A stretch of 64,000 nucleotides of DNA from Pseudomonas brassicacearum (GTDB lineage Bacteria; Pseudomonadota; Gammaproteobacteria; Pseudomonadales; Pseudomonadaceae), in the NCBI RefSeq assembly GCF_000585995.1, contig NZ_CP007410.1:5111430-5175429 (forward strand). Reading direction: 5' to 3'. Below the pieces are notes generated by a model that worked only from the letters and a program-made list of their open reading frames with translations, searched no databases and was not told where the DNA came from. The number at the start of each line of letters is the position of its first letter. Position 1 is the first letter of the stretch. Below, piece after piece: positions 53,912 to 56,059 of this stretch. A program made the translations under genes and the position numbers.

Positions 53912-54408
53912 GAAAAGGGTCTCACGCAAGGTTTGATGATGGTCGTTGGACGTTGCCGCTCGAATCGGATCTCAAGCAGCGCCGATCAAACCCCAGCGCA
54001 GGCACCAGGAGTTCAGCGTTTTTACAACGGTCATGCGTCACCTATTTGTTTTTATCTGTGACGAAATTGAACCCGACACGCTTGTGGCGTGGCGGAGTGA
54101 ACAAGGCGGATAACCTTGAAAGTGCGTGGGTACGCGAAGGGTCACAGTAAAACGCGGCGCATTGTACACCGCCGTCCCCTTGCTGCCAGACACATGGGAC
54201 GCATCTCACCCTTCCCGCAGCGTTGAAACAATCGGGCCAAAGCCTCGGTAAGCCCCTTGCGACGGGCGCGGCGGAAGCTTTTTCTTACAAGTTCTGAAAT
54301 CGCGATTTCCAGCCAACTCAACTGGGGGAAATCGTCAGCATTTCTTTACAACCTGTAACGCATCATTTCCAAGTAGGAATTTTCCGTAAGCTGCCTGCAA
54401 ATTGACGG

Positions 54409-54422
54409 TAGGTAGCTACCTA
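54409..54422. promoter_or_regulatory. Perfect 14-base palindrome upstream of the peptide gene
   Basis: TAGGTAGCTACCTA reads the same on both strands and lies directly before an A/T-rich tract (TAATAAAAAA), about 235 bases before the peptide ATG. Candidate operator; no regulator gene is adjacent. Confidence 0.45.
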
Positions 54423-54551
54423 ATAAAAAAAATCGCCAGACAGCTGTTTTTGAATGAGTAATTTCCTCACTGAAAATGGAATAAAAAATTCAAAAGAAAA
54501 AAATGAAATTATTTTTTTGCATTCCAAAATACCCTGGTCTAGGTTTCAGCG

Positions 54552-54578
54552 ACTTGCCAACGCATCGTGTCGGCAAGT
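54552..54578 (+). promoter_or_regulatory. Leader stem-loop before the peptide gene
   Basis: ACTTGCC and GGCAAGT form a seven-base-pair stem with a 13-base loop, 80 bases before the ATG, followed by TTTGGCGG. Could be a 5' leader structure of the transcript. Confidence 0.4.
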
Positions 54579-54657
54579 TTGGCGGTGTCGCTTCCGGTCA
54601 GTTTTCGCTCGCCGAACCGCTCCGCACTTTCCGTAAAAGTCATCTAGGAGATTCACT

Positions 54658-54795
54658 ATGCAAGCACTGGACAAAGACTTGGAAACCGAACTGCAACTGG
54701 ACGAATGGTTTGAAGCACCGACCCATGAAGCCGCCGTTGAAATGATGCAAGCCGACGCCGTCGTTCCGTTCGGCACGGCGATGTGGCCTCTGTAG
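54658..54795 (+). CDS. 45-residue peptide, candidate RiPP-type precursor
   Basis: Starts after TAGGAGATTCACT (AGGAG, 7 bases before ATG). The peptide is acidic in its first half (MQALDKDLETELQLDEWFEA) and ends in a short hydrophobic tail VVPFGTAMWPL, an arrangement typical of a leader plus core in ribosomally made, modified peptides. It has no signal peptide or Cys. The gene is followed by a terminator-like hairpin and then an M29-like enzyme gene. I do not recognise it as a known family. Confidence 0.8.
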   Translation: MQALDKDLETELQLDEWFEAPTHEAAVEMMQADAVVPFGTAMWPL

Positions 54796-54804
54796 ACATG
54801 GCCC

Positions 54805-54840
54805 GGCGGAGGCGATCCGGCCGGTCGACTCCGCCGCTTT
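54805..54840 (+). terminator. Attenuator-like hairpin between peptide and enzyme genes
   Basis: GGCGGAG (54805-54811) pairs with CTCCGCC (54829-54835), with further CGA/TCG pairing inside, then GCTTTTTG. Partial termination here would give more precursor than enzyme transcript, as in pqqA-pqqB and many RiPP loci. Confidence 0.75.
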
Positions 54841-54888
54841 TTGCCGGTTGTCAGGAAAGCCCAATCTACTTGTCAGGGAAGAATAAGC

Positions 54889-55854
54889 ATGGACACACAA
54901 CGAGCCATCTCACATTTCCTTTACTACCTCGAACACCATCCCGCCCTGGCCGGCATCCAGCCCGCCAAGGTGCTGCTCGGCCATACCGCTGACTACGAAG
55001 CACTGACCGGCGCCATCGCCGAACAGGCTGGCAGCGGCTCCCCCTTCCGGTTCAGCGCCATGCGCCTGGACCTTGAGTCCACCGAGCGCCTGTCCAAGGC
55101 CATTGCCGACAGCGATCTCTATATTTTTTTCTACGACTCCTCCACCCTGCCCAACCCGCGCCCCGACGGCCCGGACTTTGTCCGCGCGCTGCAAGGCGTA
55201 ATGGCAGACAACTGGAAGAAATCGCTGCTGTTCAAAGACTATGGCGATTATTTCTATGACACCTTCAGCGTCATTCCCCAGCGTATCGCGGGGCTCAACA
55301 GCCACCTGATCCAGCGGATGTCCCAAGCGACGACCTTGAGCTTCCAGGATGACCTGGGCTCGTATTTCGACACCGACCTCAACAGCGTCAAGAAATGGAC
55401 CGACATCAACGGCCTGGGCAACTATGACCTGGCCCCCGGCGAAATCGCCACCCACAGCGACACCATCAATGGCCAGGTGAAATTCGTCGGTACGTTCCTG
55501 AGCACCATCCCGTTCGCCCGCAAGTACGGTGTGCTGCAATCGCCGCTGGAGTTGTGGATCGAAGACTCCACCATCCAGAAAATCGCCACAGACGTGCCAG
55601 GCCTGGAGCACGACTTCAACAAGTACCTGGACGCCAACCCATCCAACCGCCGTATCGAGGAGTTGGGGATCGGCACCAACGAGGGGGTCAAGAGTCTTTA
55701 TGCCCGCAATGCCGGTTTCGAGGAGCGCCATTGCGGCCTGCACCTGGGGCTGGGTGGTGGGGCCAAGGGCAGCCATCACCTGGACCTGATTTTCGAGAGT
55801 GGCGTGTTGGCGCTGGATAATGAGCGGATGTTTGATGGGCGGTTTGTGCTTTAG
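54889..55854 (+). CDS. M29-aminopeptidase-like protein linked to a small peptide gene
   Basis: A 321-residue protein whose second half follows M29 metallopeptidases (aminopeptidase T, COG2309). Expected metal ligands are all in place: Glu185 (LAPGEIATHSD), Glu258 (RRIEELGIGTN), His285 (RHCGLHLGLGG), His297 and Asp299 (GSHHLDLIF). The N-terminal half (AIADSDLYIFFYDSS) also fits, but the chain is shorter than usual (about 370-415). AGGGAAG lies 9 bases before the ATG at 54889. No signal peptide. Position just after a 45-residue peptide gene suggests the peptide or its processed form is the substrate. Confidence 0.78.
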   Translation: MDTQRAISHFLYYLEHHPALAGIQPAKVLLGHTADYEALTGAIAEQAGSGSPFRFSAMRLDLESTERLSKAIADSDLYIFFYDSSTLPNPRPDGPDFVRALQGVMADNWKKSLLFKDYGDYFYDTFSVIPQRIAGLNSHLIQRMSQATTLSFQDDLGSYFDTDLNSVKKWTDINGLGNYDLAPGEIATHSDTINGQVKFVGTFLSTIPFARKYGVLQSPLELWIEDSTIQKIATDVPGLEHDFNKYLDANPSNRRIEELGIGTNEGVKSLYARNAGFEERHCGLHLGLGGGAKGSHHLDLIFESGVLALDNERMFDGRFVL

Positions 55855-55927
55855 GGGCAGCTTCAAGTTGCGAGCTTCAAGCGGCAAGAAGAGCAAGTAG
55901 CCTCTGGATGGTGGTGGAGCTGCTGGC

Positions 55928-56025
55928 CTCTTCGCGAGCAAGCCCGCTCCCACAATGAAGCGGCGCCGACCCAAATCTTCTATTCACTGGAGATCAAGTG
56001 TGGGAGCGGGCTTGCTCGCGAAGAC
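55928..56025. repeat. REP pair (GTGGGAGC family), divergent orientation
   Basis: Back-to-back copies (GCTCCCACA then TGTGGGAGC) between the M29-like gene and the rluB terminator. Confidence 0.88.
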
Positions 56026-56059
56026 GACTGCACCGGCACCGTATCAATAACGCCAGACA

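Follow-up and report, generated by a model that had tools for sequence, protein, structure and literature searches.

The closest described relatives of the system considered here are CgnB and CgnE, two proteins of the crocagin cluster of Chondromyces crocatus (structures 6zsv and 6zsu; Pfam family PF26231). According to Adam et al. (2023; PMC10070186), both bind the precursor peptide CgnA, no aminopeptidase activity was seen, and together with the dioxygenase CgnC they formed the tetracyclic pyrroloindoline core of crocagin, for which CgnC was needed. It is proposed there that CgnC hydroxylates the tyrosine and that CgnB eliminates water using its metal, and it is stated that the metal site is preserved where a genome has a single copy, and that precursors close to such copies were predicted by RiPPER; neither Pseudomonas nor Burkholderia is named in the main text. 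Here we describe a two-gene cassette from a 64,000-nucleotide (nt) stretch of Pseudomonas brassicacearum DNA (contig NZ_CP007410.1, positions 5,111,430 to 5,175,429; the whole stretch is referred to below as the window), in which a gene for a 45-residue peptide is followed by one for a 321-residue metalloprotein. An earlier note, made from the sequence of the window alone, had read the pair as an unusually small system in which an M29-aminopeptidase-like enzyme acts on the peptide or uses it as a product carrier, so making a processed small molecule or signal. The cassette is real, conserved and widespread, and its protein is a relative of the CgnB/CgnE kind. Because an extremely conserved 45-residue peptide adjoins one crocagin-related metal-binding protein, it points to a very small, widespread peptide-modifying system.

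The peptide, the metalloprotein and their linkage

The small open reading frame with an AGGAG signal and a C terminus reading VVPFGTAMWPL is present as the earlier note had described it (coordinates are given in Table 1). Among the Pseudomonas loci compared, which are the best 80 of 233 matched relatives, the peptide is encoded directly upstream of the enzyme in all 80, with 36 distinct peptide sequences (a few of them cut from a later ATG) and 75 distinct DNA sequences. Across 68 distinct 45-codon sequences the ratio of non-synonymous to synonymous substitutions (dN/dS) is 0.083, with values of 0.243 for residues 1–12, 0.049 for residues 13–32 and 0.035 for residues 33–45; the peptide is therefore conserved as a protein, and a ratio near 1, which the note had held would tell against its interpretation, is far above the value obtained. 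A profile built from 13 peptides recovered 77 relatives at a cut-off of E<=10, 76 of them with E<=2.1e-6, and those named come from Pseudomonas, Burkholderia, Paraburkholderia, Vibrio, Xenorhabdus, Photorhabdus, Chromobacterium, Serratia, Chania, Klebsiella and Piscirickettsia. These homologues and the low dN/dS rule out a chance reading frame.

Alignment of the tails shows P37, T40 and W43 to be invariant in 76 of the 77 homologues, the remaining one being a 30-residue piece cut before these positions. Of these 76, 74 retain A34 and 75 retain V35; at position 41 there is either Ala (71) or Ser (5), at position 42 either Met (38) or Leu (38). Each tail reads T-[AS]-[ML]-W followed by one or two residues, with no Tyr before the Trp. 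The residues after the Trp are variable (PL in 20, A in 18, PV in nine, PF in eight, P in seven, and others), and 27 tails have no Pro there, 18 of these ending in WA. Judged by sequence, the tail is almost unchanged across genera. Several of the homologues (P0147, P0151, P0154, P0160, P0163 and others) carry the name mercuric reductase, for which we found no support; on peptides of about 40 residues it is apparently a propagated misannotation.

In the metalloprotein, E185, E258, E279, H285, H297 and D299 are invariant in an alignment of 25 rows, made up of the window sequence and 24 homologues down to 40 % identity. Five of these residues, all except E279, had been singled out in the earlier note, and we likewise take this set (E, E, H, H, D) to be the ligands of M29 enzymes. 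The AlphaFold2 (AF2) model, with a mean predicted local distance difference test score (pLDDT) of 92.9, matches NicX, AmpT, AmpS, PepS, CgnB and CgnE (Foldseek, VIA), and an M29-like fold is thus predicted. Ligands and fold therefore bear out the M29 label in part, but hmmscan gave no match between the enzyme and Pfam Peptidase_M29 (PF02073) at E<=10, on which ground an ordinary M29 aminopeptidase was ruled out as its class; PF02073 also had no match in the window's own genome at E<=0.001, while four of 14 control genomes were matched. PF26231 (PF26231.1, the crocagin CgnE/B domain) is precomputed on many of the homologues, including P0003 at 79 % identity; the closest homologue, P0001, carries no precomputed PF26231, and the local copy of Pfam reports none. 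Since a Pfam M29 match is absent and PF26231 is found on homologues, the enzyme is better placed with the M29-derived CgnB/CgnE family than with the M29 aminopeptidases. The enzyme profile matches 6zsv at E 1.8, below significance, and this sub-significant alignment pairs E258, E279, H285, H297 and D299 with E252, E274, H280, H291 and D293 of CgnB (the chain numbering agrees with that of PMC10070186 after an offset of 8). The sixth CgnB ligand is E161; E185 of the enzyme lies outside the pairs aligned to CgnB.

The two genes are exclusively linked. Of 278 genomes drawn from the window's genus, 98 matched the profile of the enzyme and 96 that of the peptide, and no genome had the peptide alone; of the two with only the enzyme, G1321 has a fragment containing a stop, and the match in G1112 is just 29 residues long. 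All 96 pairs lie on one contig and one strand with 68–103 nt between the two matches, although in one of them (G1288) the enzyme is split into two overlapping pieces. The fetched loci comprise 162 enzyme-bearing entries at 146 distinct places, the fragments in G552 and a distant relative in G527 not being counted, and the peptide is upstream at 140 of these, downstream at five and unseen at one, where the locus (G433) meets the end of a contig. The five downstream cases are all Xenorhabdus-like (L100 and L154–L157), and three loci of the same genus (L152, L153 and L158) have the peptide upstream. Enzyme homologues that lack the peptide gene, the other finding that the note had expected to count against it, were sought: every intact enzyme in the genus sample is accompanied by the peptide (96/96), and the sole place read without one is the contig end. 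Given this pairing and the dN/dS of 0.083, the core inference of the note, an unusually small system in which the peptide serves the enzyme as partner or substrate, survives both of these tests; with its M29 label in need of correction, the interpretation is partly supported.

The closest named homologues are from Pseudomonas, and beyond that genus the pair is found again in genomes of Burkholderia-like, Xenorhabdus-like and Piscirickettsia-like bacteria. The enzyme occurs in 51 of 65 genomes of the Burkholderia-like genus, where the peptide is upstream in all 30 loci read, and in nine of 30 of the Xenorhabdus-like genus; in the broader samples, which partly overlap, it was found in 12 of 148 genomes of the family, eight of 398 of the phylum (one a weak match, in G527), three of 369 of the class (one, G552, as fragments) and three of 119 of the family of G433. 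About one-third of the genomes sampled from the window's genus, then, and most of the Burkholderia-like ones have the cassette, which is rare in the broader samples. Peptide and enzyme distances are strongly correlated (Mantel r 0.957 for 39 representatives, reached in 0 of 2000 permutations), as shared descent alone would also make them. The window's own genome (6.65 Mb in one contig) has one enzyme match in the family search, and two matches in one genome are found in four of the 65 Burkholderia-like genomes and three of the 278 of the genus (one a split gene and two with distant matches). The distant matches lie away from the cassette in frames of 377 codons (G1185 C1:2027857-2028480, E 1.5e-19) and 402 codons (G1115 C39:24493-25086, E 5.5e-21).

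The intergenic hairpin, the upstream region and the neighbouring genes

Table 1. Features of the cassette, by position in the window
Feature	Position	Strand	Basis
Promoter-like element TTGCAT-17-TAGGTT, putative function	54517..54545	+	Conserved block in 22 upstream regions
Inverted repeat ACTTGCC...GGCAAGT ahead of the peptide gene, perhaps an operator or a hairpin in the 5' untranslated region	54552..54578	.	
Shine–Dalgarno sequence AGGAG of the peptide gene	54646..54650	+	Sequence; present in 22/22 aligned upstream regions
45-residue precursor-like peptide	54658..54795	+	Reading-frame call, dN/dS, 77 profile homologues
GC-rich hairpin after the peptide stop, then TTTTT at 54838-54842; probable partial terminator	54805..54835	+	Covariation
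321-residue CgnB/CgnE-type M29-like metalloprotein (E185, E258, E279, H285, H297, D299)	54889..55854	+	Alignment, AF2, Foldseek

The GC-rich hairpin that the earlier note had placed, with a T-run, behind the peptide gene is borne out by covariation in 43 intergenic sequences (41 of the 72 distinct ones among the 80 loci, together with the window and L011). In this set 93.9 % of cells are paired, compared with 82.9 % after shuffling, and 63 cells are changed on both sides, compared with 18.8; pairing falls to 31–48 % when the partner is slid by 1–3 columns. Changes on both sides affect eight of 13 pairs, a value reached by 51 of 500 shuffles, and the other four measures of covariation were reached by 0 of 500. 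The window's hairpin folded alone is unremarkable (z −1.74, with 13 of 200 shuffles equally good), and a terminator scan of the window did not list it; we nevertheless regard it as real, because of the covariation across the 43 sequences. By eye, a hairpin can also be made out behind the peptide gene in L135, L138, L143, L144 and L150, as well as in L142, where it comes after a peptide encoded downstream. Further upstream, a block comprising a T-tract, TTTGCA and CTAG is nearly invariant in 22 aligned regions; the promoter-like element of Table 1, which matches the sigma-70 consensus weakly, was not listed by a promoter scan. In the same regions the CTTGCC arm of the inverted repeat is invariant, and the other arm reads GGCAAG in 12, GGCCAG in five, GACAAG in three and GGCACG in two. 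Rfam gave no match across 54060-54960 at E<=1.

An amino-acid permease gene (PF00324) lies upstream in divergent orientation and was found in 78 of the 80 Pseudomonas loci, and a pseudouridine-synthase gene by Pfam, which we take to be rluB, lies downstream and was found in 76, convergent each time. The two loci without the permease and three of those without rluB stop short; the remaining one, L031, is long, yet no rluB was found in it. No co-directional gene follows the enzyme in Pseudomonas, and as the flanks are the divergent permease and the convergent rluB the Pseudomonas cassette consists of two genes. Ten members of the genus without the cassette were searched for rluB and four stretches were fetched, of which three have permease and rluB adjacent, with neither cassette gene between them, and tblastn found no remnant of either; the fourth stretch does not include the permease. 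Short palindromic repeats (GTGGGAGCGGGCTTGCTCGCGAAG and its inverse), presumably of the repetitive extragenic palindromic (REP)/REPIN kind, occupy 55925-56026 between cassette and rluB, and similar stretches occur in cassette-less relatives.

Additional genes stand at some other loci. In L143 (G937, L143:7743-11372), whose peptide is of the same family and ends in VIPFATALWA, the enzyme is followed by a tetratricopeptide repeat (TPR)-like gene and a 2-oxoglutarate (2OG)-Fe(II) oxygenase-like gene, the latter scoring 24.2 bits with PF13640, below the cut-off of 27. The same tail marks a second peptide subfamily (L143, L138, L139 and L140), in which the peptide is upstream of the enzyme and the enzyme precedes a protein of about 475 residues with TPR-like matches only, perhaps a glycosyltransferase. 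In L149 (G527, L149:6969-9003) a relative only distantly similar to the enzyme (29 % over 122 residues) stands directly before a gene resembling the aKG-HExxH peptide beta-hydroxylases (TIGR04267, E 4.2e-10, 39.9 bits against a cut-off of 40); with a reading frame of about 60 residues just upstream of the relative, this is possibly a different RiPP (ribosomally synthesized and post-translationally modified peptide) locus. A 164-residue frame in the Burkholderia-like L150 (L150:7617-8111) overlaps the enzyme frame by four bases and is a possible third gene, for which neither Pfam nor NCBIfam gave a match at E<=0.01. With the L143 oxygenase as query (CgnC itself was not used), the window's own genome held no clear relative, the best E being 0.4, and only four of 12 cassette genomes matched at E<=0.01, that of L143 included; a trans-acting oxygenase was set aside on these results. 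Three Burkholderia-like genomes have a homologue at 34–35 % identity elsewhere in the genome.

Proposed action of the cassette and its alternatives

Our working hypothesis, to which we give a probability of roughly 0.6, takes the cassette for a minimal RiPP-like system and the P-x-x-T-x-x-W tail of the peptide for the target of the CgnB-type metalloprotein. The first gene would supply an acidic precursor, the N-terminal two-thirds of which (LxLxxWFxxxTHxxAVxMM) would serve for recognition and the C-terminal AVVPFGTAxW tail of which would be the part acted on; we propose residues 12–34 as the recognition part and AVVPFGTAMWPL as the core. The hairpin, probably a partial terminator, would cut expression of the second gene and so keep the peptide in excess, and the single-copy protein, its metal site intact, would bind the peptide and work on the invariant tail without a dedicated oxygenase. 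We infer binding, excess and catalysis from these features, the tail and the metal site together pointing to the peptide as substrate. As to the chemistry we would favour, one may speculate, on the model of the elimination that has been suggested for CgnB, that the metal site assists dehydration of Thr40 and that the indole of Trp43 captures the resulting dehydrobutyrine. A hydroxylase would be dispensable because Thr40 already bears the beta-hydroxyl that CgnC must install in crocagin; the neighbours of L143 and L149, both just under their family cut-offs, suggest a link of the family to beta-hydroxylation, and should CgnB-type proteins remove water from residues with a beta-hydroxyl, the invariant Thr would do away with the need for a hydroxylase, which would account for a cassette of two genes. 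That the cassette represents a two-component, oxygenase-free RiPP class, with Thr dehydrated and captured by the Trp three residues on to give a new one-enzyme indole cross-link, is a bolder claim and we think it unlikely. An AF2 model of peptide, linker and enzyme as one chain, with the stop codon read as Gly for modelling, has a helix at peptide residues 24–32 (mean block pLDDT 58–67) and values below 50 for residues 39–75; it did not place the peptide core and is uninformative on docking.

Were the protein instead a peptidase, it would trim the peptide to a proline-protected fragment, such as VPFGTAMWPL, acting as a signal. The M29-type ligands, the predicted fold shared with AmpT, PepS and AmpS and the invariant P37 would suit such maturation, yet it seems quite improbable in view of the missing Pfam M29 match, the failure to see aminopeptidase activity in CgnB and CgnE (PMC10070186), the 27 of 76 tails that show a C-terminal Pro cap not to be general, and the lack of any adjacent exporter gene besides the amino-acid permease. 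Strict pairing and linkage would also fit a peptide which, rather than being a precursor, permanently serves the metalloprotein as small subunit, activator or inhibitor (a toxin–antitoxin-like pair being one form of this), as would conservation that is strong all along residues 13–45, beyond the tail, and the mean pLDDT of 67–71 for the blocks covering residues 11–30 in the tethered model. The prospects of this explanation are slim, however, as the C-terminal tail is the most conserved stretch (the precursor that goes with the related CgnB is alike in this), the hairpin suggests an excess of peptide over enzyme, and PADLOC matched neither protein with any family at E<=1; the slow divergence of the pair and its shared site in Pseudomonas genomes are, moreover, unlike what is usual for toxin–antitoxin pairs.

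Just as slim a prospect, in our view, is a fuller crocagin-like pathway, with the genes for a CgnC-type oxygenase, a protease and an exporter at other sites of the genome. The need for CgnC in crocagin core formation (PMC10070186), the two genes after the L143 enzyme and the oxygenase homologues of the three Burkholderia-like genomes speak for it, but the own genome and eight of the 12 cassette genomes lack a clear relative of the L143 oxygenase, the precursor has no Tyr-Trp pair and a second enzyme match in a genome is rare. The minimal cassette acting on the peptide tail would be of use beyond its own product: the part that CgnB plays in crocagin catalysis is known by inference only, since CgnC has to act as well, and a natural version with one peptide and one metalloprotein would isolate the CgnB step and make it directly testable. 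With the cassette common, its tail near-constant and no paper on it found, a conserved metabolite or signal may await discovery.

Comparison with known systems

Short precursor genes near those for processing enzymes are familiar from pqqA–pqqB, mycofactocin mftA and other RiPP loci, from which the cassette differs in having one enzyme gene and no adjacent radical SAM (S-adenosylmethionine) gene. NicX (2,5-dihydroxypyridine dioxygenase; 7cn3 and 7cup), a mononuclear Fe enzyme, shares the predicted fold; it acts on a free pyridine, whereas the cassette enzyme has six candidate ligands and a peptide partner gene. The M29 aminopeptidases AmpT, AmpS and PepS (2ayi, 1zjc and 4icr) are alike in predicted fold and in the five ligands, but the cassette enzyme has no PF02073 match, is roughly 75–90 residues shorter and is paired with a peptide gene.

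The likeness to CgnB and CgnE goes further, extending to the M29-derived fold, the aligned metal ligands and a nearby gene for a short precursor with an important Trp at the C-terminal end, at about 13 % identity to CgnB in structural alignment. Crocagin clusters have two CgnB/CgnE copies and CgnC, whereas the cassette has a single copy and neither CgnC nor CgnD at the locus; the crocagin precursor is basic, has 21 residues and ends in Ile-Tyr-Trp, whereas the cassette peptide is acidic, has mostly 38–46 residues (the starts are uncertain) and ends in P-x-x-T-x-x-W with one or two further residues. Our literature searches, which led to PMC10070186 and PMC12710340 among others, found no paper on the cassette, none holding the tail motifs and none joining crocagin with Pseudomonas and Burkholderia; the list of RiPPER precursors for single-copy CgnB/CgnE proteins in the supplement of PMC10070186 may already include the peptide. 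Single-copy CgnB/CgnE relatives with predicted precursors are thus already known in outline from that work, and what is new here, within the searches made, is the fixed two-gene unit, the invariant P-x-x-T-x-x-W tail and the abundance of the cassette.
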